From: a virus
Direction: 5' to 3' (one strand)
Length of the DNA stretch: 25,599 nucleotides
Virus record (IMG/VR): IMGVR_UViG_3300045733_000212
Coordinates: 1-25,599 of that record
The notes under the pieces are model-generated. The model saw only the letters and a list, made by a program, of their open reading frames with translations. It was not told the origin of the DNA and did no database searches. Numbering within the stretch: the stretch's first letter is position 1; each line of letters starts with the position of its first letter. Below are positions 8,573-20,691 of this stretch, one piece after another. The position numbers and the translations under genes are program-made.

Positions 8573-9460
8573 ATGTTAATTCATCATCTTGGTTGTTCAG
8601 GTGGTAAAGACTCTACTGCTCTTTTGCTTTGGGCCATCCACGAATCAGGACTGCCAAGAGAGTCCCTACGGGTGACATTTTGCGATACGCATAATGAGGA
8701 CAAGTTGACCTACGAACATTTGGACATGCTTCGCAAGAAGGTGGCGGAACCCGCTGGAATTGTAGGAGGGATTGAAGTGCTGGAACCGAAACATGGATTT
8801 TATGAAATGGTTTTGAAGCACCATTGTTTCCCAAACAGGAGAATGCAATTTTGTACGCATGAGTTGAAGCTATACCCAACCCAAAAATGGGTTCAAGCTC
8901 GGCAAAATGAAGGACATACTGTTGTTGTTCTGAATGGAAAAAGGACGGCGGAAAGCAACGCTAGAAAACTAAGCATGGCCGGAAAGCCAGAGAGAGAGAT
9001 GTCCATGTTTTGGGGTTGTGAGGAGTGGGCTCCGCTAATGTTTTGGTCTATCCAGGATGTGCTGGCAATCCATCAACGCTACAAGGTTCCCTTGAATCCA
9101 CTTTATGCTTTGGGTGCTCATCGTGTCGGATGTTTCCCCTGTGTGAATTGTGGAAAGTCCGACTTGCGAATGGTGGCACAAGTCAGACCAGAAAAGATCA
9201 AAGAGATTGCAAAATGGGAACGTGATTTTTTCAAGGATACTGGTATTATTTCCACCTTTTTCATGTGTGAGAAGGCATCAAAACATTTTAGAACGATTAA
9301 GTTTGTAAACTCAAAAGGCAAAGAAGTCTCCACCGCACCCATTGAAAAGGTGGTGGAATGGGCGTTCACCAAACGAGGAGGCAAAAAGGAAGTTGCCACT
9401 TTTGGAATTGAAACCTCAGAACCCAAGGCATGCTGGATGAATTACGGAGCTTGCGAGTAA
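8573..9460 (+). CDS. PAPS-reductase-family PP-loop protein
   Basis: A 295-aa protein with the adenylating PP-loop CSGGKDST near the N-terminus (residues 8-15), an RRMQFCTHELK block, KRTAESNAR (matching the family's G-x-R-x-x-E-S-x-x-R) and a GCFPCVNCG cysteine cluster. These are hallmarks of the CysH/DndC-like family found in many phages. The chemistry is ATP activation followed by reduction or sulphur transfer; the phage substrate is unknown. True PAPS reduction, or sulphur insertion into DNA or RNA, cannot be told apart here, and DndB/D/E partners are not in the window. The gene is visibly more A/T-rich than its neighbours and is preceded by an A/T-rich spacer, suggesting separate acquisition. 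Confidence 0.8.
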   Translation: MLIHHLGCSGGKDSTALLLWAIHESGLPRESLRVTFCDTHNEDKLTYEHLDMLRKKVAEPAGIVGGIEVLEPKHGFYEMVLKHHCFPNRRMQFCTHELKLYPTQKWVQARQNEGHTVVVLNGKRTAESNARKLSMAGKPEREMSMFWGCEEWAPLMFWSIQDVLAIHQRYKVPLNPLYALGAHRVGCFPCVNCGKSDLRMVAQVRPEKIKEIAKWERDFFKDTGIISTFFMCEKASKHFRTIKFVNSKGKEVSTAPIEKVVEWAFTKRGGKKEVATFGIETSEPKACWMNYGACE

Positions 9461-9542: not shown

Positions 9543-10352
9543 ATGCAAATCGACAAACAGCAAGCAGTGGCCTTCATGGCCGCACTTGGCTTCTCCAAGG
9601 CCAAGGATTGGACCGACGACGTTCTTGCGGAACGTCTCGGTGCGACACCGGAACGAGTCAAACCCGAAGAAGTTCCCGCCCCCTTTGTGGAACTTTATAA
9701 CTCCATCTCGGATTCCCCCAAGACGGAACCGATCGAGTTGACCGGGGAGGGTGTGGCCAAGAAGTCCAAGGCTGCAAAGCCCGCTGGCAAATTCGTTGAG
9801 AATACCGAACCGGAGGCTTCGACCCCCTCCCAGGACACCCAACCGGAGCTTCCCATGGATAAACAAACCAAATCTGTGAAGGAAACGACAAGGAAGGCCA
9901 CTCCAGCGCCAGCCAAGACCACGCCCAAGGGGTCCACCAAGTTTGCTGCGGCAATTGTGAGCAAGAAACTGGCAGCGGCCGTGAGTAAGGAGACAACCAA
10001 AATTGCCAGTCTATCCGGTAAGACGGCTAAAGATAAGCAACCTGCTAAGGTTACTAAGGATGCCGCGCCCAAGATGGCCAAACCTGCTGCCAAGCCGATC
10101 AAGGCGAAGTCCGCCAAACCCGCACGTGAGAAGACGCCTCTGGATTCCTACGGTTGCAGGGAAGGAACGATTTCCAGCGACGTGAATTTGGTGATGACAA
10201 ACGACTGGCAGGATGACGTTGCCATCGCCAAGGCAGCGAAATGCACTTTGCGCGAAGCCCGGGGCCGGCTCTACCTCGCCGTGGTCAACAAAGTTTTCGA
10301 GGCGAAACGGATCATCCAATATCGCCTGATGCCCAAGAAGGCTGGCAAGTAA
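9543..10352 (+). CDS. Lys/Ala/Pro-rich protein with N-terminal helical domain
   Basis: ATG 9543 is chosen because the upstream in-frame sequence from 9465 is Asn/Arg-rich leader. The 269-aa protein has an N-terminal domain of about 60 residues (AVAFMAALGFSKAKDWTDDV), then a long low-complexity Lys/Ala/Pro/Thr linker like histone H1 tails, and a compact C-terminal domain (TISSDVNLVMTNDWQDDVAIA... REARGRLYLAVVNK) that may be a helix-turn-helix. It is strongly basic overall, so DNA binding or compaction is likely. No named family is recognised. Confidence 0.65.
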   Translation: MQIDKQQAVAFMAALGFSKAKDWTDDVLAERLGATPERVKPEEVPAPFVELYNSISDSPKTEPIELTGEGVAKKSKAAKPAGKFVENTEPEASTPSQDTQPELPMDKQTKSVKETTRKATPAPAKTTPKGSTKFAAAIVSKKLAAAVSKETTKIASLSGKTAKDKQPAKVTKDAAPKMAKPAAKPIKAKSAKPAREKTPLDSYGCREGTISSDVNLVMTNDWQDDVAIAKAAKCTLREARGRLYLAVVNKVFEAKRIIQYRLMPKKAGK

Positions 10353-10361
10353 TCAATTTGG

Positions 10362-10460
10362 GGACTGTTAACTATCGGGACCTGTCACTGGCCGGTATCG
10401 AGAGCAACTGCTAATAACACTGTCTTTCGCATGTTCAAGTGACAAGCATGGTAACAGTCC
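10362..10460 (+). ncRNA. Candidate structured RNA with closing 9-bp stem
   Basis: A 9-bp closing helix and an internal 7-bp helix enclose 99 nt, and a T-rich tract follows at once (10461-10471). This could be a small RNA ending in a terminator-like tail. It was tested as a tRNA and does not fold as a cloverleaf. Arms of this length and spacing can arise by chance, so confidence is low. Confidence 0.3.
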
Positions 10461-10497
10461 TCATTCTTTTTGGGTCACTCAATGTAAGCCTAATGGG

Positions 10498-10710
10498 ATG
10501 GCGGAAGTGCCTGCTAATGCTGGCCAGGATAAACCCTTAAAGCAGTCCTTCCCTTTGAGTGACCTTTCCAATTTTGGATGGTTCCCAGTGTTTGACCGAG
10601 ACTTCACCGGGAATGATGTGCTGCAACGATCACACGGGAGAACCGGAAAACTTACGTATGTTGGTAGTGGCCAATGGTCACAGCTTGCAGCGTCCTTGGT
10701 TCTAAACTAA
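10498..10710 (+). CDS. Doubtful 70-aa ORF
   Basis: This frame could encode a 70-aa protein with an aromatic stretch (NFGWFPVFDRDF) and ends 4 bases before the clamp ATG. It has no ribosome-binding site, no motif, and overlaps the right arm of an inverted repeat. It may be a real small gene, a degenerate remnant, or chance. Confidence 0.25.
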   Translation: MAEVPANAGQDKPLKQSFPLSDLSNFGWFPVFDRDFTGNDVLQRSHGRTGKLTYVGSGQWSQLAASLVLN

Positions 10711-10714
10711 TCCA

Positions 10715-11743: not shown

Positions 11744-11931
11744 GCAAAGTCTATTGGTTTGGTGGTTCTCCACTCAAACGTGCCCATTGTGTCACCAATC
11801 GCAATCACGTTGCTTTGTGTGGGGCATGGCCATGGGCGGGTTGGGATCTTGTGGAGTCCGACAAGCCTCAGTGTGCCCGCTGTCGGGAAGAGTTGGAAAA
11901 ACTTGAAAAGAAATTCACTGAGACGAAGTGA
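11740..11931 (+). CDS. Small Cys/Trp-rich protein (63 aa)
   Basis: It begins at an ATGA overlap with the clamp and ends at a GTGA overlap with the glycosylase/exonuclease. It has C17, C27 and a CARC pair (45-48), with HCVTNRNHVALCGAWPW between them, consistent with one zinc site, then a Lys/Glu helix. Similar Cys-framed mini-proteins are common in phage replication regions; the function is unknown. Confidence 0.6.
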   Translation: MSKVYWFGGSPLKRAHCVTNRNHVALCGAWPWAGWDLVESDKPQCARCREELEKLEKKFTETK

Positions 11932-13109
11932 GTGAGTTCTTTCCATCGTCCCGCATTCAATCCGGTAAAGCATCCCGTATGGTTGCAGCTTGTGGTGCAT
12001 GCGGGCTGTTCAAGGGATGTGAGCATCCCAAGATGAAACCGCATGGCGATGGTGGAAAACAGGTGCTCATCGTAGGCGACTTCCCGGGACTCGTTGAGAA
12101 TGAACTTGGACGACCGTTTGTAGATGAATCCGGTTCGTTTCTGAAACAAACTTTGCGTAGCTTTGGCATTACCTTGGAACGGGACGCCCTTGCCACGAAT
12201 GCTTTGATTTGTTCCACCAGAGGACTGAAAGCGCCGGAGCCTAACCAGATTGACTACTGCCATCCCAACTTAGTCAAAACGATTCAGGAGTTTCAGCCAC
12301 GTGTGATTATCACATTGGGACGCTCCGCGCTTACGAGTGTTCTCACTGGTGTCTGGGATGACATAAAGACACTGGAGCGTTGGGTTGGGTGGAGAATCCC
12401 GATCAAGGATTACTGGGTATGCCCTACCTACCATCCCAGCTACCTTTTACGGATGAAGAACCAATTGATGGACCGGCAGTTTTCCGATCACTTGGAAGCG
12501 GCGTTCGCCATTGACGATGAACCGCCCCAGCTTCCTGACTTCACCAAAAAGATTGAAGTGCTGTATGACGAGGAGCAAATAGCTGAATCCATTTTCGAGA
12601 TGGACAATGACGGGGATTGGATTGCCGTGGATTACGAGAGTAACTGTCTCAAACCTGAGTATCCCAAGGCGGAAATCGTGTCGTGTGCTATCTCTAACGG
12701 GAAGCGAACAATCTCTTTCCCTTGGGTTGGTGGAGTGATTGGGAAAGTAGGTCAATTCCTCGCGTCTGGTAACACTCGCAAGATCGCTCAGAACCTACGC
12801 TTTGAAGAGAGGTGGACGCTGAAAACGTTTGGGTATGGTGTGAACGGTTGGGAATGGGATTGCATGCTTGCCACGCATTGCTTAGACAACCGACCGGGGA
12901 TTTGTTCACTCAAGTTTCAAGCGTTGGTGCAAATGGGAGTCCCCGCCTACAACACGGAGATTGCTCCATTGCTGGAAAGCTACAAAGGCCCCTACAACCG
13001 GATTCGGGAAATTGAGATGGGGAGTCTGCTCTTTTATGGCGGCATGGATTCGTTGCTGGAATGGAAGCTGGCAATGAAACAGAGGAAGGAGATGGGGTAT
13101 GAGTGCTGA
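11928..13109 (+). CDS. Family 4 uracil-DNA glycosylase fused to DnaQ-like 3'-5' exonuclease
   Basis: A 393-aa fusion starting at GTG 11928 (ATG 11979 is possible but would start just before the first cysteine). The N-terminal domain has four cysteines placed as in the Fe-S family 4 UDGs: CGAC (22-25), one in NALICSTRG and one in YWVCPTYHP. It also has GDFPGLVENELGRPFVD (residue 50 on; the family usually has GEAPG) and HPSYLLR. The C-terminal domain is a pol I-type proofreading exonuclease: AVDYESN (DxE), AQNLRFEE, WDCMLATHCLDN and YGGMD (YxxxD). The gene lies one small ORF upstream of a polymerase that lacks its own exonuclease. It would remove uracil and misincorporated bases at the fork. 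SPO1-type polymerases also carry a UDG-like domain, but there it is joined to the polymerase. Confidence 0.85.
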   Translation: MSEFFPSSRIQSGKASRMVAACGACGLFKGCEHPKMKPHGDGGKQVLIVGDFPGLVENELGRPFVDESGSFLKQTLRSFGITLERDALATNALICSTRGLKAPEPNQIDYCHPNLVKTIQEFQPRVIITLGRSALTSVLTGVWDDIKTLERWVGWRIPIKDYWVCPTYHPSYLLRMKNQLMDRQFSDHLEAAFAIDDEPPQLPDFTKKIEVLYDEEQIAESIFEMDNDGDWIAVDYESNCLKPEYPKAEIVSCAISNGKRTISFPWVGGVIGKVGQFLASGNTRKIAQNLRFEERWTLKTFGYGVNGWEWDCMLATHCLDNRPGICSLKFQALVQMGVPAYNTEIAPLLESYKGPYNRIREIEMGSLLFYGGMDSLLEWKLAMKQRKEMGYEC

Positions 13110-13347
13110 TCCATGGAGGGAAAGACCGGACAAAATACAGCAGAAAGAATTGCGTGATTCTATCTATCTCCTCATTCAAAAAGACAGAGAAGATAAAATC
13201 GCGTCTGATTGCGCGTTGGCCGTGAACAGAAGGATACTCGCCGCCAAAATGATTCCTACCATTAATGTGAACATGCACTTTTCCGTTTTGATAGGAACAG
13301 CACTTGAAGAGATCAAACGACTCCAGAGCTTAGTGGAGCACGGTTGA
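13099..13347 (+). CDS. Hypothetical 82-aa protein between exonuclease and polymerase
   Basis: It overlaps the exonuclease end by 11 bases and the polymerase start region. The protein is mostly helical, charged N-terminally (PWRERPDKIQQKELRDS) with a hydrophobic middle (INVNMHFSVLIGTALEEI). Its position between the two halves of a pol I-like enzyme suggests a bridging or accessory subunit, but nothing in the sequence proves it. Confidence 0.55.
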   Translation: MSADPWRERPDKIQQKELRDSIYLLIQKDREDKIASDCALAVNRRILAAKMIPTINVNMHFSVLIGTALEEIKRLQSLVEHG

Positions 13348-13349
13348 TT

Positions 13350-15959
13350 ATGACTGAATCCGTCCATGCTATCCGCCAAGAGGGGTATCAGCTTCTCCAT
13401 GAGGGAGCTATTGAGTTGGCCCGGGTGGAGTCCAACGGCATCAGGATTGACGTAGAGCGGTTACGACGAGTCCAAACCAAACTTGCTGAACGAATTCGGG
13501 ATCTCAAAAATGATTTGCTGGCAGAGGACATTTGGAAGCGGTGGCGAAGGCGATTTGGTGACAAAGCAAGTCTAGGTTCCCGGGATCAACTGTCCACGCT
13601 CCTCCATGTTGAGATGGGCTACGAGGTAGTTGAAACAACGGATAGCGGCGCACCATCCACGGATGAGGAGGCACTTTCCAGGATTGACCTTCCATTCGTT
13701 CCTAAACTGATTCGTTTCTTGAAGTATGAGAAGGCGTTAGGAACATACCTGAAGGGGATTGAGCGGGAACTTGTAGGGGATCGCATCCATCCATTCTTCA
13801 ATCTCCACACTGTTATTAGTTTTCGTTCTTCAAGTTCGGACCCGAATTTCCAAAACCAGCCAACACGGGACAAAGAGATTGCCAAGATAATCCGTCGCAA
13901 TTTCATTCCTTCAGATGGATCCGTTTTAGTGGAGAATGATTTTAAGGGGATCGAAGTGGCGTTGAGTGCGTCGTACCACCACGATCCCAATTTCATTTCC
14001 TACATCACGACTCCCGGGAAGGACATGCACCGGGATATGGCGGCACAGATTTACTGTCTGGATCCAAAAGATGTGTCAAAGGAGGCTCGCTATGGCGCAA
14101 AGAACAAATTCGTCTTCCCTCAATTCTATGGGGACTACTATATTGCATGTGCTAAGAACCTTTGGGATTGGATTGAGAAAGGCAAGCTCACTACCCCAAG
14201 CGGGATCTCTCTTTTTGATCATCTAAAGAGTGAAGGAATCACTTGGCTTGGGGATTGTGACCCAGAGGTAGATCCCGCCCCTGATTCTTTCGAGGCCCAC
14301 CTTCAGGACATTGAGGATGACTTTTGGAACAACCGTTTCAAAGTGTATGGGCAATGGCGGAAAGACTGGCATCAAGCGTACTTGAAAAAGGGCTACTTTG
14401 ATTTGCTGACTGGATTTCGCATCCATGGTTCATTCAATCGGAAGCAATGTGGGAACCTGCCCATCCAAGGGTGCTTGGTGGGCTCCTCAAGAGTTCTCAC
14501 AAAGAAAGGATTGATTCCAATACAAGAGTTGGAAGGCCAATTGGTAGAAGTTTGGACAGGGTTTCGGTGGGCAAAAGCGGTTGGGCTAAATCGGGGTAAA
14601 GCTCAACGAGCAAAAGTGATTTTGAGTTCAGGTCTTGTGATTCAATGCGACACACGGCACAAGTTCAAAAATGAAGTAGGGAAATGGATTGATTTTCAAG
14701 ATTTGAAGATTGGGAACAAGGTCGCACTTCCAAAGATGGAAACCGCTTTATCCGCATCGGAGAAAATGAATTGGTGGTTTGTGTTTGGGTTTATCATCGG
14801 GGACGGCTGCATTACCAATCCAAGAAAGTACCTCCAGATAGTTGTTGGGAAAACAAAGAAAGCAGATCTTGAAAAGATCCATCAATTCTTACTGGATGAA
14901 GGATTCAATGACGGTGGCTATCGGGGAGTTCATCTGAAAGTTAAGAAGGTGAAGGGACGAAACGATCAGTATCATTTATGGATTCAGTCAAAACATCTTG
15001 CAGCATTCTTGGAAAAAGCAGGATTTCGGTTTGGAATGAATGCACACACAAAACGAATCCCTTCTTCTGTTTGGACAGCTTCCGATCAGAATCGCCGAGA
15101 TTTCCTTGAAGGGGTTTGGCGCTCAGACGGTTCAAGAGGAAAAAATACAAACCATAGACTCAATCTTTGCAACAAACCCTTGCTGCAAGAGCTTCAAGTT
15201 TTAGCGGCCTCCGTTGGATTTGACAGCTTCATGGTTGAGGCTGATACAAAAAAGGCATGGCGTGTCACTTTTCACGCGGAGAAATTCAACGGAAAACCGC
15301 CAAGACGGTATCCCATTGAAGCCGTAAAGAATCAAATGGCTGAGGTATCCTTGGAGAATTACGAAGACGGCAGGAATGCTTGGATAACTGATAAACGCTG
15401 TTTCACAAAAGGCGAGATAACTCAGTATGTAGGGGAGAGGATGTTGGAAAGAAATGCTCCCAAGAATGCGGAGGTTTATCGCTACGATTCCATAGTGGAG
15501 ATTTCGATTCTTTCTAAGAAGGAAACAACCTACACCATGTCGGTGAATGACGCCCTTCATCAATTTGTTGCGGATGGTGTGATTCATAAAAACTCCGCGT
15601 TCCATTGCCTCCTATGGTCACTGATCCAAGTGAACCGCCAGCTTTGCAAATACAAAATGCGGAGTCTCATCGTAGGACAGATTCACGATAGCTTGGTTGG
15701 GGATGTCCGGGTTGAGGAGCTTCGCGACTACCTGGAGATCGTGGAGCAAGTCACCACAGTTGATTTACGAAAGCATTACGATTGGTTGGTCGTGCCTCCT
15801 GAAATCGAATACGAGATTGCGACTGACAACTGGTTTGAGAAGCAAGAATTCAAGTTCAAAGATGGATTGTTTTTACATCCTGAACATCCTGAGAAAACGA
15901 CAGATAACCCGCACAAATTTCTCGCCACTTTGGCACAACTGAAAGCTGAAAAAGTATGA
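13350..15959 (+). CDS. Family A DNA polymerase, intein-containing
   Basis: The 869-aa precursor loses a 374-aa intein to give a polymerase of about 495 aa, i.e. only the thumb/palm/fingers part. Motif A is NDFKGIEVALSA (Asp197), motif B RYGAKNKFVFPQFYG (Arg247, Lys at the expected spacing), and motif C QIHDSLVGD, where the usual HDE reads HDS. The conserved PIQG-S-A stretch is interrupted by the intein. Proofreading and 5'-3' nuclease functions are encoded separately (11928 and 22605). ATG 13350 is used; TTG 13344, with GGAG 5 bases upstream, is an equally possible start. It overlaps queC by ATGA. Confidence 0.9.
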   Translation: MTESVHAIRQEGYQLLHEGAIELARVESNGIRIDVERLRRVQTKLAERIRDLKNDLLAEDIWKRWRRRFGDKASLGSRDQLSTLLHVEMGYEVVETTDSGAPSTDEEALSRIDLPFVPKLIRFLKYEKALGTYLKGIERELVGDRIHPFFNLHTVISFRSSSSDPNFQNQPTRDKEIAKIIRRNFIPSDGSVLVENDFKGIEVALSASYHHDPNFISYITTPGKDMHRDMAAQIYCLDPKDVSKEARYGAKNKFVFPQFYGDYYIACAKNLWDWIEKGKLTTPSGISLFDHLKSEGITWLGDCDPEVDPAPDSFEAHLQDIEDDFWNNRFKVYGQWRKDWHQAYLKKGYFDLLTGFRIHGSFNRKQCGNLPIQGCLVGSSRVLTKKGLIPIQELEGQLVEVWTGFRWAKAVGLNRGKAQRAKVILSSGLVIQCDTRHKFKNEVGKWIDFQDLKIGNKVALPKMETALSASEKMNWWFVFGFIIGDGCITNPRKYLQIVVGKTKKADLEKIHQFLLDEGFNDGGYRGVHLKVKKVKGRNDQYHLWIQSKHLAAFLEKAGFRFGMNAHTKRIPSSVWTASDQNRRDFLEGVWRSDGSRGKNTNHRLNLCNKPLLQELQVLAASVGFDSFMVEADTKKAWRVTFHAEKFNGKPPRRYPIEAVKNQMAEVSLENYEDGRNAWITDKRCFTKGEITQYVGERMLERNAPKNAEVYRYDSIVEISILSKKETTYTMSVNDALHQFVADGVIHKNSAFHCLLWSLIQVNRQLCKYKMRSLIVGQIHDSLVGDVRVEELRDYLEIVEQVTTVDLRKHYDWLVVPPEIEYEIATDNWFEKQEFKFKDGLFLHPEHPEKTTDNPHKFLATLAQLKAEKV
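14472..15593 (+). mobile_element. Intein with LAGLIDADG homing endonuclease in the polymerase
   Basis: The insert begins with Cys (CLVGSSRVLTKKG, block A) right after PIQG, contains a block B His (CDTRHKF), two LAGLIDADG-type helices (FVFGFIIGDG and FLEGVWRSDG) and ends VIHKN before Ser of SAFHCLLW. That is 374 codons exactly in frame. Cys1, the terminal Asn and Ser+1 are present, so splicing should work. The penultimate residue is Lys rather than His (HKN), a deviation. Insertion at an active-site motif of PolA is typical of inteins. The DNA looks more A/T-rich than the flanking polymerase. Confidence 0.92.
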
Positions 15960-16525
15960 TCCCAAAAACAATTGTCCATCTCCTTAGCGGTGGACTTGAT
16001 TCCGTCACGCTCCTCTATGAACTGCATGGGAAGGGGGAGCGTGTGCATTGCGTACTGTTCGATTACGGGCAAAAGCACGTTCAGGAATTGACATTCGCAA
16101 AACTCCATTGCCACAGACTGCATGTGCTGTTCACCACCATGGAGATTCCCAAACTTGGTGGCCTCACCAATGAAAATTGGATTGTGCCGAATCGCAATGC
16201 CATCATGCTTTCTCTTGCGGTGAACTTAGCAGTGAGAATCAAGGCGGATACCGTCACCATCGGATGCAACAAAGATGATGAGGCGGCATTCCCTGACTGC
16301 CGTATGGCATTCCTGCAACTGTTCAACACGATGCTGACAACAGTTGAAATTCCAGTGGAGGTTTGTGCCCCTTATCTGGACTGGCCGAAATGGAAGATAG
16401 CTGGACTGGCGCGGGATCTTGGTGTGCCGTCCAATGAAATTTGGACATGCTATCTTGGGGGATCTGAGCCTTGCGGGAAATGTCCGGCATGTCTGAAACT
16501 CAATGAAGCATTGGCACACAAATGA
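15956..16525 (+). CDS. queC: 7-cyano-7-deazaguanine (preQ0) synthase QueC
   Basis: The 189-aa protein has the PP-loop LSGGLDSVT (Ser11 to Ser16 core), LFDYGQKHVQEL, VPNRNAIMLSLAV, a PDCR element and a C-terminal zinc site TCYLGGSEPCGKCPAC (Cys165, 173, 176, 179). These are specific to QueC, which uses ATP and ammonia to convert 7-carboxy-7-deazaguanine to preQ0. It is somewhat short for the family (usually 220-230 aa) but no motif is missing. It is coupled by ATGA overlaps to the polymerase before it and to a DpdA-like gene after it, so its product is most likely meant for DNA rather than tRNA. QueD, QueE and FolE are not in the window; the host or another phage region must supply the precursor. 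Confidence 0.92.
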   Translation: MIPKTIVHLLSGGLDSVTLLYELHGKGERVHCVLFDYGQKHVQELTFAKLHCHRLHVLFTTMEIPKLGGLTNENWIVPNRNAIMLSLAVNLAVRIKADTVTIGCNKDDEAAFPDCRMAFLQLFNTMLTTVEIPVEVCAPYLDWPKWKIAGLARDLGVPSNEIWTCYLGGSEPCGKCPACLKLNEALAHK

Positions 16526-17127
16526 TCGTGATGCTTGATACTCCTCAAGATTTACGGATCTGTTCAAAAGAACTGGGTCAAAGAGTTGAGCAACTATTCA
16601 CTCCTTTGACACGATACACTCCACAACAACCGCAAAGCCATTTCGCCATAGACAATGGAGCTTTCTCTAAATTTGAGGTGAAGGGGTTTATGTCACTTCT
16701 GAAAAGGGAAAAGCCACGTCGCCGCCTCTGTCGTTTCGTGGCTGTTCCTGATGTAGTAGGAAGCGCCATCCGAACTTTAGAGATTTTTAGACTTTGGATG
16801 GAAAGACTAGAAGGGTGGCCCCTCGCACTTGTCGCGCAAGATGGACAAGAATATCTTCCAATTCCTTGGGAAGATTTATCCGCTATTTTCATAGGCGGAT
16901 CTACTGAATGGAAAATGAGCAAACACGTTATTCAGATCATCAAAGCAGCAAAGGCTCTTGATATTTGGATCCATGTTGGGAGAGTAAATACACCTGGACG
17001 CTTTGAATACTTTGAAGATGCTGGTGCGGACTCTATTGATGGAACTGGACTTTCGAGATATTCATGGATGCGAAACGCCATCTATCGCAACGCAACTGAA
17101 CCTAGACTAATCCCAAAACTAAAATGA
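16522..17127 (+). CDS. dpdA: DpdA-like DNA 7-deazaguanine transglycosylase
   Basis: A 201-aa protein resembling the short phage DpdA/TGT-like family. Conserved blocks in order are FAIDNGAFS (Asp44), AVPDVVG (Asp77), LVAQDGQE (Asp107), IFIGGSTEWK (residues 122-131), HVGRVNTPGR (151-160) and GADSIDGTG. Acidic residues at the ends of barrel strands and the GG loop fit a tRNA-guanine-transglycosylase TIM barrel. The expected reaction is exchange of guanine in phage DNA for preQ0 made by QueC next door, masking the DNA from restriction. It is much shorter than bacterial DpdA. The assignment rests on motif memory plus QueC context. Confidence 0.8.
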   Translation: MIVMLDTPQDLRICSKELGQRVEQLFTPLTRYTPQQPQSHFAIDNGAFSKFEVKGFMSLLKREKPRRRLCRFVAVPDVVGSAIRTLEIFRLWMERLEGWPLALVAQDGQEYLPIPWEDLSAIFIGGSTEWKMSKHVIQIIKAAKALDIWIHVGRVNTPGRFEYFEDAGADSIDGTGLSRYSWMRNAIYRNATEPRLIPKLK

Positions 17128-18044
17128 CTGGACTCTATCAAAAATATCGCCCCGGTACACTGTTGACTGTCATCGGGCAGCATCGCGCCGTCTCCACTCT
17201 TGAAAAGTTGATTGAGGGAAAGCGAATTCCTCATGCGCTTCTATTTACGGGGGCCAGTGGCGTTGGCAAAACTACACTAGCTAGAATCATTAAGGATGAG
17301 TTGAACTGTGGTGATCGTGACTTCGTGGAGATCAACTGTGCGGACTTCAAAGGGATTGATACCATTCGAGACATTCGCCGGCAAATGACACTATCCCCAC
17401 TTTTTGGATCTAGTCGTGTTTGGCTAATCGACGAGGCCGGCAAACTTTCTGGGGATGCGATGGCAGCCATCTTGAAGATGCTGGAGGACACACCGCCTCA
17501 TGTCTACTTCATGCTTTGCACAACGGACCCGCATAAGCTCCTCAAAACGATTCACACCCGTTGCACCGAGATCAAGTTGGAACTTCTGTCCGAATCCGAT
17601 TTGACCAAGTTGGTATCGGATGTCGCATTCAAAGAAAGAATGGATCTAGGCGAAAACACGATTCAGTCCATTGTGGAATCAGCGGAAGGGTCAGCACGTA
17701 AAGCACTCGTCATCCTTGAACAGGTTGGATTCCTTCCTGAATCGGAGCAAGAAGAGGCCATCTTGGCGGCATCAGTGGCGAAAGACCAAGCTATCCTTCT
17801 AGCGCGGGAATTGATCAAGCCCAATGCAAGCTGGCCCGCCGTCGCTGCCATCCTGAAAGACTTGAAGGATGAACCGGAAGGAATTCGATACCTCATTCTT
17901 GGCTACTGCCGAACGGTGCTCTTGGGTGGTAGCAAACTCGCACCCCGCGCTTTCATGATTATCGACACGTTCAGCATGAATTTCTATGACTCAAAGCAGG
18001 CAGGACTGGCAGCAGCGTGCTGGGAAGTGGTAAACAGGAAATGA
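17124..18044 (+). CDS. Clamp loader ATPase (DnaX/RFC-like)
   Basis: A 306-aa AAA+ protein beginning LYQKYRPGTL (compare the RPxxF of DnaX/RFC), with Walker A GASGVGKT (43-50), Walker B LIDEAG (Asp103-Glu104), a sensor-1 region (MLCTTDP) and an SRC-like HTRC arginine-finger motif. The zinc module of bacterial DnaX is absent, so it is closer in layout to T4 gp44 or archaeal RFC small subunit. It should load the clamp at 10715. A separate delta or gp62-like subunit is not recognised here. It is joined by ATGA overlaps to dpdA and to the methyltransferase. Confidence 0.88.
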   Translation: MTGLYQKYRPGTLLTVIGQHRAVSTLEKLIEGKRIPHALLFTGASGVGKTTLARIIKDELNCGDRDFVEINCADFKGIDTIRDIRRQMTLSPLFGSSRVWLIDEAGKLSGDAMAAILKMLEDTPPHVYFMLCTTDPHKLLKTIHTRCTEIKLELLSESDLTKLVSDVAFKERMDLGENTIQSIVESAEGSARKALVILEQVGFLPESEQEEAILAASVAKDQAILLARELIKPNASWPAVAAILKDLKDEPEGIRYLILGYCRTVLLGGSKLAPRAFMIIDTFSMNFYDSKQAGLAAACWEVVNRK

Positions 18045-18760
18045 ATCCAACTTGGCAAAGTAAAGATGGATCTGTTCAGTTGTATCTAGGCGACTGTCTG
18101 AAAGTGTTGCCAACTTTGGGGAAGGTGGACTGTATCTGTACTGATCCTCCCTACGGAATGGATTTAGACACTGACAACTCACGATTTAGCGGCGGAAACG
18201 TAGCTAGTATTTCCAAACGTGGAAATGGAATTGGCACTGGTGGAGGTAGAGGGATTATAGGCGATGACGAACCATTTGACCCAACACCATGGATTGATTT
18301 CCCTGTTGTGGTTTTATTTGGAAGCAATCACTTTGCACAACGACTACCTGTTGGGACCACACTTGTTTGGTTGAAACGTCATGACATGGCCTTTGGCAGT
18401 TTCTTGTCCGATGCTGAGATAGCATGGATGAAGGGTGGGCATGGCGTTTATGCGAAGCGTGATTTGACCATGAATGGAGAAGCAAATACTCGTTCCCATC
18501 CAACACAAAAACCCGCAGGGATCATGGAATGGTGTTTGGAAATGGCTAAAGTTCAAACTGGTGAATTCGTTCTAGATCCATTTATGGGATCAGGAACTAC
18601 TGGAGTAGCCTGCATCCGAACCGGCCGAAAGTTTATTGGTATAGAAATAGATCCAACTTATTTTGAGATTGCCAAGAAACGAATCCAGAATGAATTGAAC
18701 AAGCCCACTCTTTTACCTCCAAACCAAGTTACCCGAACCAAGTCCACCACATTTTTCTAA
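18041..18760 (+). CDS. Beta-class DNA (N6-adenine or N4-cytosine) methyltransferase
   Basis: The start is ATG 18041 at an ATGA overlap. The 239-aa protein carries the catalytic motif TDPPYG (35-39) before the SAM-binding motif DPFMGSGTTG (179-188), the order of beta-class amino-methyltransferases; IGIEIDPTYFEIAKKRI follows as usual. The stretch between is short and Gly-rich (GIGTGGGRGI), leaving a small target-recognition region. No restriction endonuclease is adjacent, so it is an orphan enzyme, likely for protection or regulation. The target base and site cannot be read from sequence. Confidence 0.9.
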   Translation: MNPTWQSKDGSVQLYLGDCLKVLPTLGKVDCICTDPPYGMDLDTDNSRFSGGNVASISKRGNGIGTGGGRGIIGDDEPFDPTPWIDFPVVVLFGSNHFAQRLPVGTTLVWLKRHDMAFGSFLSDAEIAWMKGGHGVYAKRDLTMNGEANTRSHPTQKPAGIMEWCLEMAKVQTGEFVLDPFMGSGTTGVACIRTGRKFIGIEIDPTYFEIAKKRIQNELNKPTLLPPNQVTRTKSTTFF

Positions 18761-19279: not shown

Positions 19280-19438
19280 ATGTCCGTTCTGGAATTCTTC
19301 GGATGGTGTTGCCTCATCTTTGTGGGGCTTCCCATCCTCGCTTACCTCGTTGTAAAGTTCGGGGCGGCGGGATTCCTTCGGGCATTCGACCGGCGAAATA
19401 GATCCAATCAAAAACAACCAACGAAAGACCAAGAATGA
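19280..19438 (+). CDS. Single-pass membrane mini-protein (52 aa)
   Basis: ATG 19280 directly follows the preceding TAA, and the TGA overlaps the SSB ATG. The protein has one hydrophobic segment (residues about 4-26, LEFFGWCCLIFVGLPILAYLVV) and a basic tail FLRAFDRRNRSNQKQ. Lysis, superinfection-exclusion or membrane anchoring roles are possible. Tight coupling on both sides supports it as real. Confidence 0.55.
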   Translation: MSVLEFFGWCCLIFVGLPILAYLVVKFGAAGFLRAFDRRNRSNQKQPTKDQE

Positions 19439-20691
19439 AAGGCAGAGAACAACAGCGGGAACACCGCTACACGTCCGCCCGTGATCGTGCGGAAAAACAA
19501 TCGTCCGGATTCACAGGATCCTACCTGAAACTCCCGGACGGGGTTCAACTCTTCAAGCCCAAGCAGGGGATCATCCTCATTGACATCCTTCCGTTTGAAG
19601 CCGGCGAGGGCAATCCGTGGGCGGAAGCCGGGTGTCTCCACTGGGAACGCACCTATCACGCTCACCGGGGAATCGGAGCGAATTCGGAAATGTTCCTGTG
19701 TCCTCGTTCGTCCGCGAAGCAACCGTGCCCGGTATGCGAATACCGTCACAAGTTGCAATCGGCCGGCAACGAGGATGACGAACAGATGGTCAAGGATCTG
19801 GCCCCGAAACAACGCCAGATTTTCAACATCATCAACCTCAAGGATCCGGACAAGGGTGTTCAGCTTTGGGACATGAGTTACCACTGCTTCGGCAAGGTGT
19901 TGGACGCCCGATTGCGAAACTCGGATGACTCGGATGGTTGGGATCAGTTCTTCTTCCTGGAGGGCGGATTCAGTCTCAAGGTTGGTTTCGCGGAGAAGTC
20001 GTTTGGAGGGTTCACATTCTTGGAAGCGGAGTCCATCGACTTCAAGCCCCGGTCCAAGGACTACGACGATTCCATTCTGGATGAAGTCCACTGCTTGGAT
20101 GATCTCCTGATCGTCCCGGAATACGACGCGCTCAAGAAGGCATTCCTGGAGGTGGAGAAGACTCCGGCGGATGAACCTCCCAAGCGGACAAGTCGTGGTG
20201 CAAGTCGTGCTGAACCGACTCCCACGGAAGAACGCGGCTCCCGCCGCACTCGCGACCCGGAAGCTCATCCTGATCCTGATCCAGCAGGCACGGAACGCAC
20301 TGAGCGTCGTTCTCGCCAGGAAGAACCGCCTGCTGATATGGATGACTTCGATAAACGGGGTCGTCGTGGAAAGCCCGCCGAAGATCCGGAACCGGAACCG
20401 GAGCGCCCCGCCCGTGGCTCACGTCGCGCTGATCCTGATCCTGATCCCGAACCGGAGCCCAAGCGGACAGGTCGCCAAAATCGTGCTGATCCGGAGCCTG
20501 AACCCGAACCGGAACCGTCTCGCGGCTCCCGCCGCACTCGCGACCCGGAACCGGAAGAAGATCCTCCTCGCCGAAGTCGTCGCGCTGAACCGGAAGAAGA
20601 TACCCCGCATGTCCGCCAGCATCCCAAAGAGGACGCTCCCGCTGGGAAGCAGGGCAAGCCCGGGAAGTCAGCGAAGGACGATTGGGACTGA
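19435..20691 (+). CDS. gp32-like single-stranded DNA-binding protein with long repetitive tail
   Basis: Residues about 1-235 resemble the T4 gp32-type SSB core: a basic N-terminus for cooperativity, an OB-like domain and a zinc site C89-x8-C98-x2-C101-x3-H105 (PCPVCEYRH). The last roughly 180 residues are low complexity, with repeated RGSRR/RTRD blocks alternating with Asp/Glu-Pro runs, ending in an acidic, Trp-containing tip (KDDWD) like the partner-binding tips of SSBs. The tail alternates positive and negative charge, unlike the plain acidic tail of gp32. It would coat ssDNA for the polymerase and recombinase encoded nearby. A 30-bp direct repeat lies in the tail. Confidence 0.8.
   Translation: MKGREQQREHRYTSARDRAEKQSSGFTGSYLKLPDGVQLFKPKQGIILIDILPFEAGEGNPWAEAGCLHWERTYHAHRGIGANSEMFLCPRSSAKQPCPVCEYRHKLQSAGNEDDEQMVKDLAPKQRQIFNIINLKDPDKGVQLWDMSYHCFGKVLDARLRNSDDSDGWDQFFFLEGGFSLKVGFAEKSFGGFTFLEAESIDFKPRSKDYDDSILDEVHCLDDLLIVPEYDALKKAFLEVEKTPADEPPKRTSRGASRAEPTPTEERGSRRTRDPEAHPDPDPAGTERTERRSRQEEPPADMDDFDKRGRRGKPAEDPEPEPERPARGSRRADPDPDPEPEPKRTGRQNRADPEPEPEPEPSRGSRRTRDPEPEEDPPRRSRRAEPEEDTPHVRQHPKEDAPAGKQGKPGKSAKDDWD
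20233..20262 (+). repeat. 30-bp direct repeat, copy 1 (SSB tail)
   Basis: CGCGGCTCCCGCCGCACTCG plus 10 further bases recurs exactly at 20521-20550, encoding RGSRRTRDPE both times. The identity of codons as well as residues suggests recent duplication. Confidence 0.85.
20521..20550 (+). repeat. 30-bp direct repeat, copy 2 (SSB tail)
   Basis: Exact copy of 20233-20262, 288 bp downstream and in the same frame. Confidence 0.85.

Follow-up and report, generated by a model that had tools for sequence, protein, structure and literature searches.

A conserved two-gene cassette of a compact QueC and a small DpdA-like transglycosylase, a likely minimal module for 7-deazaguanine modification of phage DNA

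How few genes does a phage need in order to place 7-deazaguanines in its DNA? The question is raised by the virus record IMGVR_UViG_3300045733_000212 of IMG/VR, which we analyzed over its entire 25,599 nucleotides (hereafter, the window). The window is a linear 25.6-kb contig that has no end repeats and probably represents part of a larger phage genome, with other genes possibly lying elsewhere. Between the genes for a family A DNA polymerase (polA, positions 13344 to 15959) and a DNA polymerase clamp loader (17124 to 18044; phrog_5846, 4.3e-60), it carries two open reading frames (ORFs), at 15956 to 16525 (189 aa) and 16522 to 17127 (201 aa), all on the plus strand. The original prediction read these ORFs as QueC, a 7-cyano-7-deazaguanine (preQ0) synthase, and a DpdA-like transglycosylase, joined to the flanking genes by ATGA overlaps. 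Both ORFs and the overlaps, at 15956 (polA/queC), 16522 (queC/201-aa ORF) and 17124 (201-aa ORF/clamp loader), can be read directly from the sequence. We consider it likely that the two genes constitute a minimal module for 7-deazaguanine modification of DNA that is fed by 7-carboxy-7-deazaguanine (CDG) of the host. The gene identities, the conservation of motifs, the pairing, the synteny and the lack of precursor genes in the sequence at hand are established by computation.

The product of the first ORF is, by its sequence, a compact QueC-family protein that has the canonical motifs and lacks certified equivalog status, and the assignment of this gene to QueC was therefore correct. It matches PF06508 (1.7e−44) and contains the P-loop SGGxDS (LLSGGLDS, positions 15980 to 16003), the motifs YxQxHxxE and VPxRN (as YGQKHVQE and VPNRN), and a zinc site, C(x)7CGKCPAC, in which the four cysteines and the essential tyrosine that follows are retained (CYLGGSEPCGKCPAC). 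The spacing of this site is one residue less than in C(x)8CxxCxxC, as it is in QueC of phage Rinkes. Compared with typical QueC, the protein lacks one segment of ~20 residues, which is probably why it misses the equivalog cut-off of NCBIfam TIGR00364 (144.1 bits versus 150.3). The canonical signature (YxQxHxxE, VPxRN, YPDC and the zinc site) has been defined experimentally (PMC13329287), and the sole deviation from it is FPDC, whose Phe is F112, at the YPDC position; FPDC is found in all compact relatives aligned. In Escherichia coli QueC, replacement of the tyrosine of YPDC (Y131F) leaves partial activity (PMC13329287). Because FPDC replaces YPDC, the product could be either preQ0 or the amide, 7-amido-7-deazaguanine (ADG).

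Among PDB sequences searched with phmmer, the closest matches of the window's QueC were QueC of Bacillus subtilis (3bl5, 6.6e−18) and QueC 2pg3 (1.1e−17), followed by Cap9 (9nto, 6.6e−12); by this comparison, the protein is nearer to QueC structures than to Cap9. The match to Cap9 points to an alternative, in which the pair would be a phage counterpart of Cap9 and Cap10 of the type IV cyclic oligonucleotide-based antiphage signaling system (CBASS) and would conjugate a deazaguanine to a protein N terminus, or interfere with that host defense. Cap9 is equally short (~185 aa) and is encoded with Cap10, a member of the tRNA-guanine transglycosylase (TGT) family (PMC13329287, PMC11996544), so that both systems combine a short QueC-like protein with a TGT-like one. 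However, the window's QueC keeps the canonical substrate motifs YxQxHxxE, VPxRN and PDC, and a cGAS/DncV-like nucleotidyltransferase (CD-NTase; PF18144) is present neither in the window nor in 15 other records with relatives of the 201-aa protein. The partners of these relatives, described below, also bear on this alternative.

The second ORF encodes a 201-aa protein for which searches of Pfam, NCBIfam and PADLOC gave nothing; its sole match in the profile libraries is phrog_15826 ("unknown function"; 2.3e−36). Searches with tblastn recovered relatives in 24 phage records, several of which are annotated as "DpdA-like tRNA-guanine transglycosylase," in 27 loci of IMG/VR and in 45 loci of bacterial genomes, mostly of Caballeronia and Paraburkholderia. 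The 24 phage records include no Campylobacter phage or archaeal virus, an observation that concerns DpdA3 and DpdA4. The annotated actinobacteriophage proteins, such as Sonali gp81 and GreaseLightnin gp55, belong to this family and are 32 to 37% identical to the 201-aa protein. Invariant in the family alignments are D44, G46, P76-D77, Q106-D107-G108, G125-G126, K131, H151, G153-R154, N156 and D173-G174.

The relationship of this compact family to TGT became visible in profile comparisons. A profile of 38 sequences aligned with the bacterial TGT profile (hhalign score 40.3 over 147 columns; maximum of 60 column shuffles, 27.7) and with phage DpdA1 (score 51.0; shuffle maximum, 19). The alignment is in register at functionally important positions. 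In particular, D44 of a DNGAF motif (16651 to 16665, plus strand) falls on D89 of E. coli TGT, D173 of a SIDGT motif (17032 to 17046, plus strand) falls on D264, and Q106 and G125-G126 fall on the base-recognition motifs; D44 and D173-G174 are invariant in both family alignments. In E. coli TGT, D89 is the general acid/base and D264 is the nucleophile. A smaller profile of 17 sequences did not separate from its shuffles when compared with the TGT profile (20.4 versus a maximum of 20.3). Membership in DpdA2 was considered and rejected: the score against DpdA2 of phages nt-1, K567, pf16 and Marzo, 14.1, lies below the shuffle maximum of 27.

Searches of PDB sequences with the 201-aa protein (phmmer) and with the 17-sequence profile (hmmsearch) found no TGT, and sequence searches of this kind therefore leave the relationship hidden. 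Direct comparison of the protein with the single sequence of E. coli TGT also failed, which is uninformative because DpdA1 fails in the same comparison; profiles are needed. Likewise, the silence of PF01702 carries no meaning because this family also misses the phage DpdA1 of phiG7. Between DpdA1 and the compact family, tblastn gave no cross-match, and their homology is visible by profile only. We conclude from the profile comparisons that the 201-aa protein is a member of the TGT/DpdA superfamily, outside DpdA2 and distant from DpdA1, and that its family is a separate compact subfamily set apart from both. The label "DpdA-like" is thus right for the superfamily and too specific if taken to mean either of the two DpdA groups.

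The AlphaFold2 model of the 201-aa protein (predicted local distance difference test score, 90) is a triosephosphate isomerase (TIM) barrel. TGTs are among its best matches (Z = 12.7 over 187 residues), and DpdA1 of Sonali is among the first named matches in a comparison with viral models. We did not count the fold by itself as evidence for function. Neither the 201-aa sequence nor the family alignments contain a zinc-binding cysteine cluster, and the protein is therefore not a canonical tRNA TGT. This absence also speaks against an RNA enzyme, in which QueC would raise preQ0 and the 201-aa protein would modify host or phage tRNA to favor translation of phage genes. The ancestral substrate of the TGT superfamily is tRNA, and it has been proposed that phages carrying preQ0 genes without a DpdA may boost queuosine in tRNA (Hutinet 2019, PMC6884629). 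Yet, members of the compact family are associated with replication genes in several phages, and syntenic relatives of the window's operon carry DpdA1, which is a DNA enzyme; we regard tRNA as an unlikely substrate.

The two genes occur together more than chance would explain. The compact transglycosylase gene lies within 200 nt 3′ of queC in all QueC relatives of IMG/VR at ≥50% identity (51 of 51); 14 of these came from searches with the small protein and the remainder from searches with QueC alone. These relatives form 11 clusters at 90% identity and come from otherwise unrelated phages. Among more distant queC genes (<50% identity), 0 of 34 have a compact transglycosylase gene within 3 kb. 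In two groups (L038 and L048), the downstream partner is only 26 to 30% identical to that of the window, though QueC is 57 to 76% identical; judging from these identities, replacement or divergence has changed the partner but not the gene arrangement. Such an exchange is expected if the link between the two proteins is a small molecule only. We dropped coevolution as support for the pairing: pairwise identities of QueC and of the small DpdA correlate at 0.015, a value near zero because two groups carry the divergent partner.

The compact gene is also linked to preQ0 supply in other ways. QueD is encoded directly 3′ of it in six contigs (L017, L019 to L022 and L026), and a gene for a YhhQ-type preQ0 transporter lies directly 5′ of it in contig L029 and in phages GreaseLightnin and ReqiPine5. 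The same position of a YhhQ-type gene was observed in L034 and L036, which, with L029, suggest import-and-insert systems without a synthesis gene. This threefold link, through QueC, QueD and YhhQ, is the strongest functional evidence. Members of the compact family also occur beside QueD or YhhQ where QueC is missing, which speaks against a role of the Cap9/Cap10 kind, and the swapping of partners speaks against a dedicated protein complex; we find the Cap9/Cap10 explanation very improbable. The genes next to the cassette vary among contigs (DnaB, primase, terminase or methyltransferase genes); therefore, the pair seems to be mobile among phages and is often found close to replication genes.

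What, then, supplies the substrate of QueC? Family searches found no FolE, QueD, QueE (radical S-adenosylmethionine [SAM]) or PF01702 TGT in the 25.6-kb record and no FolE, QueD or QueE in six further contigs with the cassette (55.5, 45, 38, 38, 35 and 31 kb). The same searches do recover FolE, QueD and QueE in relatives of the window's replisome, which we obtained by clamp-loader searches. In the close relatives L110 and L112 and in the more distant L114, QueD, QueE, FolE and DpdA1 are encoded between the helicase and clamp genes; queC follows the gene for a 5′-3′ exonuclease in L110 and L112, at ~14 kb and ~12 kb, respectively, from QueD-QueE-FolE, and lies inside the gene set in L114. None of these five genes is found at the syntenic positions of the window, including the pre-clamp interval at 10350 to 10714. 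Conversely, the interval between polA and the clamp loader, which holds the cassette in the window, is without such genes in L110, L112, L113, L114 and L117. A concatenated tree places the window together with L110 and L112, a split that has 100% support. The compact module probably replaced the full QueD-QueE-FolE-DpdA1 set in the lineage of the window; such a replacement is the most economical reading of synteny and tree, with independent gain as the alternative.

The same comparison bears on whether the remaining preQ0 genes are encoded elsewhere in the phage genome, which would make the cassette part of an ordinary, complete system whose genes are dispersed. The record is linear and probably a fragment, and scattering does occur, as the distant queC genes of L110 and L112 demonstrate. 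However, the syntenic sites of QueD-QueE-FolE-DpdA1 and of QueC are inside the window and are empty, and the six other cassette contigs (30 to 55 kb) likewise have no FolE, QueD or QueE. Missed pathway genes are therefore an improbable explanation, and a two-gene cassette without precursor genes, as originally predicted, agrees both with the searches and with the recurrence of the pair.

Supply of the precursor by the host is the simplest reading of this absence and agrees with the dependence on the host that had been proposed. There are precedents for it: Salmonella phage 7-11 and Pantoea phage MED16 encode DpdA only and contain 2′-deoxy-7-amido-7-deazaguanosine (dADG; 7-11 reported alongside MED16), and phage Orion, whose host is without the pathway, has unmodified DNA (PMC8306585). 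In the complete genome of Synechococcus phage Ssp-JY42, the compact gene is present, and no QueC, QueD, FolE, radical-SAM or YhhQ gene was found.

We propose the following route, in which enzyme activity, DNA as the substrate, the host CDG supply and the final base are inferred. The queuosine pathway of the host (FolE-QueD-QueE) would make CDG, which phage QueC, with ATP and ammonia, would convert to preQ0, perhaps with part of the reaction ending at ADG. With its TIM barrel, the 201-aa transglycosylase would then swap selected guanines of the phage DNA for preQ0 or ADG through an aspartate-linked covalent intermediate, with D173 as the nucleophile and D44 as the acid/base, as in TGT and DpdA. 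The location of the genes between those of the polymerase and the clamp loader would allow coexpression with replication, as the gene overlaps suggest. The original prediction had the modification made in step with replication; DpdA is thought to exchange bases already present in DNA. The proposed wiring into the replisome is real as far as the ATGA overlaps go, but this phage is not alone in it: in relatives and in Seurat-like phages, too, DpdA genes are kept next to clamp and polymerase genes, and further copies of the cassette adjoin genes for primase, DnaB or terminase. Progeny DNA could then be modified before it meets the restriction enzymes of the next host; by analogy with known phage systems (PMC6884629), the role of the module is probably antirestriction.

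Compared with known systems, the cassette is, on sequence grounds, probably a conserved two-gene form of the phage systems that place 7-deazaguanines in DNA, and its transglycosylase belongs to a compact subfamily. Like the preQ0/DpdA1 systems of phages Rosebush and CAjan (PMC6884629), it has QueC and a TGT-superfamily enzyme near replication genes and a predicted preQ0-type product, but those systems also carry FolE, QueD and QueE and a full DpdA1 (290 to 347 aa in most copies), from which the 201-aa enzyme is too divergent for direct sequence search. It would share a host-derived precursor with the DpdA-only phages 7-11 and MED16, which have a normal DpdA and no preQ0 gene, whereas the window encodes the last synthesis step and a compact enzyme. 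DpdA2 of Vibrio phage nt-1 (YP_008125322) also adjoins QueC and, as predicted for the window, acts on DNA; it has 464 aa, and its profile similarity to the compact family is undetectable. The compact genes of Sonali and GreaseLightnin and of other phrog_15826 members are found on their own, with YhhQ or next to a separate, complete DpdA1 system, whereas that of the window overlaps queC in one operon. In a bolder form, to which we give only a small chance, the pair would be a distinct, horizontally exchanged module with a chemistry of its own, in which an FPDC-type QueC releases ADG, not preQ0, and the 201-aa protein, then an unusually small enzyme for DNA base exchange, inserts ADG directly, so that two phage genes would be enough to hypermodify guanine in any queuosine-making host.

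Several points weigh against a host-fed DNA-modification module. The window amounts to perhaps one-third of a 67- to 72-kb genome, as estimated from relatives G037 and G040, and precursor genes may lie outside it. The structural comparison, which had been named as a check on the 201-aa protein, did return a TIM barrel and a match to TGT, but this match is tied with pyruvate kinases and is thus at the level of TIM barrels only; Foldseek and VIA rankings place ThiG and pyruvate kinases above TGT. Sonali, phiG7 and R29Z each hold a normal DpdA1 plus a compact member, and the compact enzyme may do something additional, for example, act on another target sequence or base. Finally, the cassette is known here from sequence rather than from an isolate, and the DNA modification is predicted. 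If a host-fed module is nonetheless what these genes encode, a phage can hypermodify guanine in its DNA with only two small genes and a precursor from the tRNA-modification pathway of the host, and phages can exchange a full biosynthetic set for a two-gene module inside the same replication operon. An enzyme of ~200 residues that exchanges DNA bases would, moreover, be of practical use and would aid in delimiting the smallest catalytic core of the TGT superfamily, and PHROG 15826, now of "unknown function," would receive a likely function.

In the Seurat-like E. coli phages phiG7 (L004, positions 9932 to 10524) and SHIN8, the compact gene adjoining the polymerase gene is split into two overlapping frames, which suggests decay or a programmed frameshift. 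In many Caballeronia and Paraburkholderia genomes (L151 to L195), compact DpdA-like genes occur with no queC nearby, and some adjoin a gene for a protein resembling 3′-phosphoadenosine-5′-phosphosulfate (PAPS) reductase; PAPS-reductase-like genes also adjoin compact DpdA genes in ReqiPine5, Erythrobacter phage R6L and Paraburkholderia. A gene for a PAPS-reductase-like ATP pyrophosphatase is found in the window at 8573 to 9460, in the helicase-clamp interval where the relatives carry QueD-QueE-FolE-DpdA1.

The cassette operon continues 3′ of the clamp loader with a gene for an N6/N4 DNA methyltransferase (18041 to 18760, plus strand; PF01555, 8.9e−24), coupled to it by a further ATGA overlap at 18041. 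A homologue with 57% identity lies 1.2 kb 3′ of the cassette in L008 and L009, and the methyltransferase may add a second mark to the DNA. At the 5′ side, polA (PF00476, PF14528) contains a 374-aa intein with LAGLIDADG homing-endonuclease motifs at 14472 to 15593, just 5′ of the cassette. A 393-aa ORF at 11928 to 13109, adjoining a polymerase ORF, combines a uracil-DNA glycosylase domain with a 3′-5′ exonuclease domain and has homologues in the replisome relatives that match over nearly its full length. The gene at 19435 to 20691 encodes a gp32-like single-strand-binding protein with a long tail of Asp/Pro/Glu/Arg repeats.

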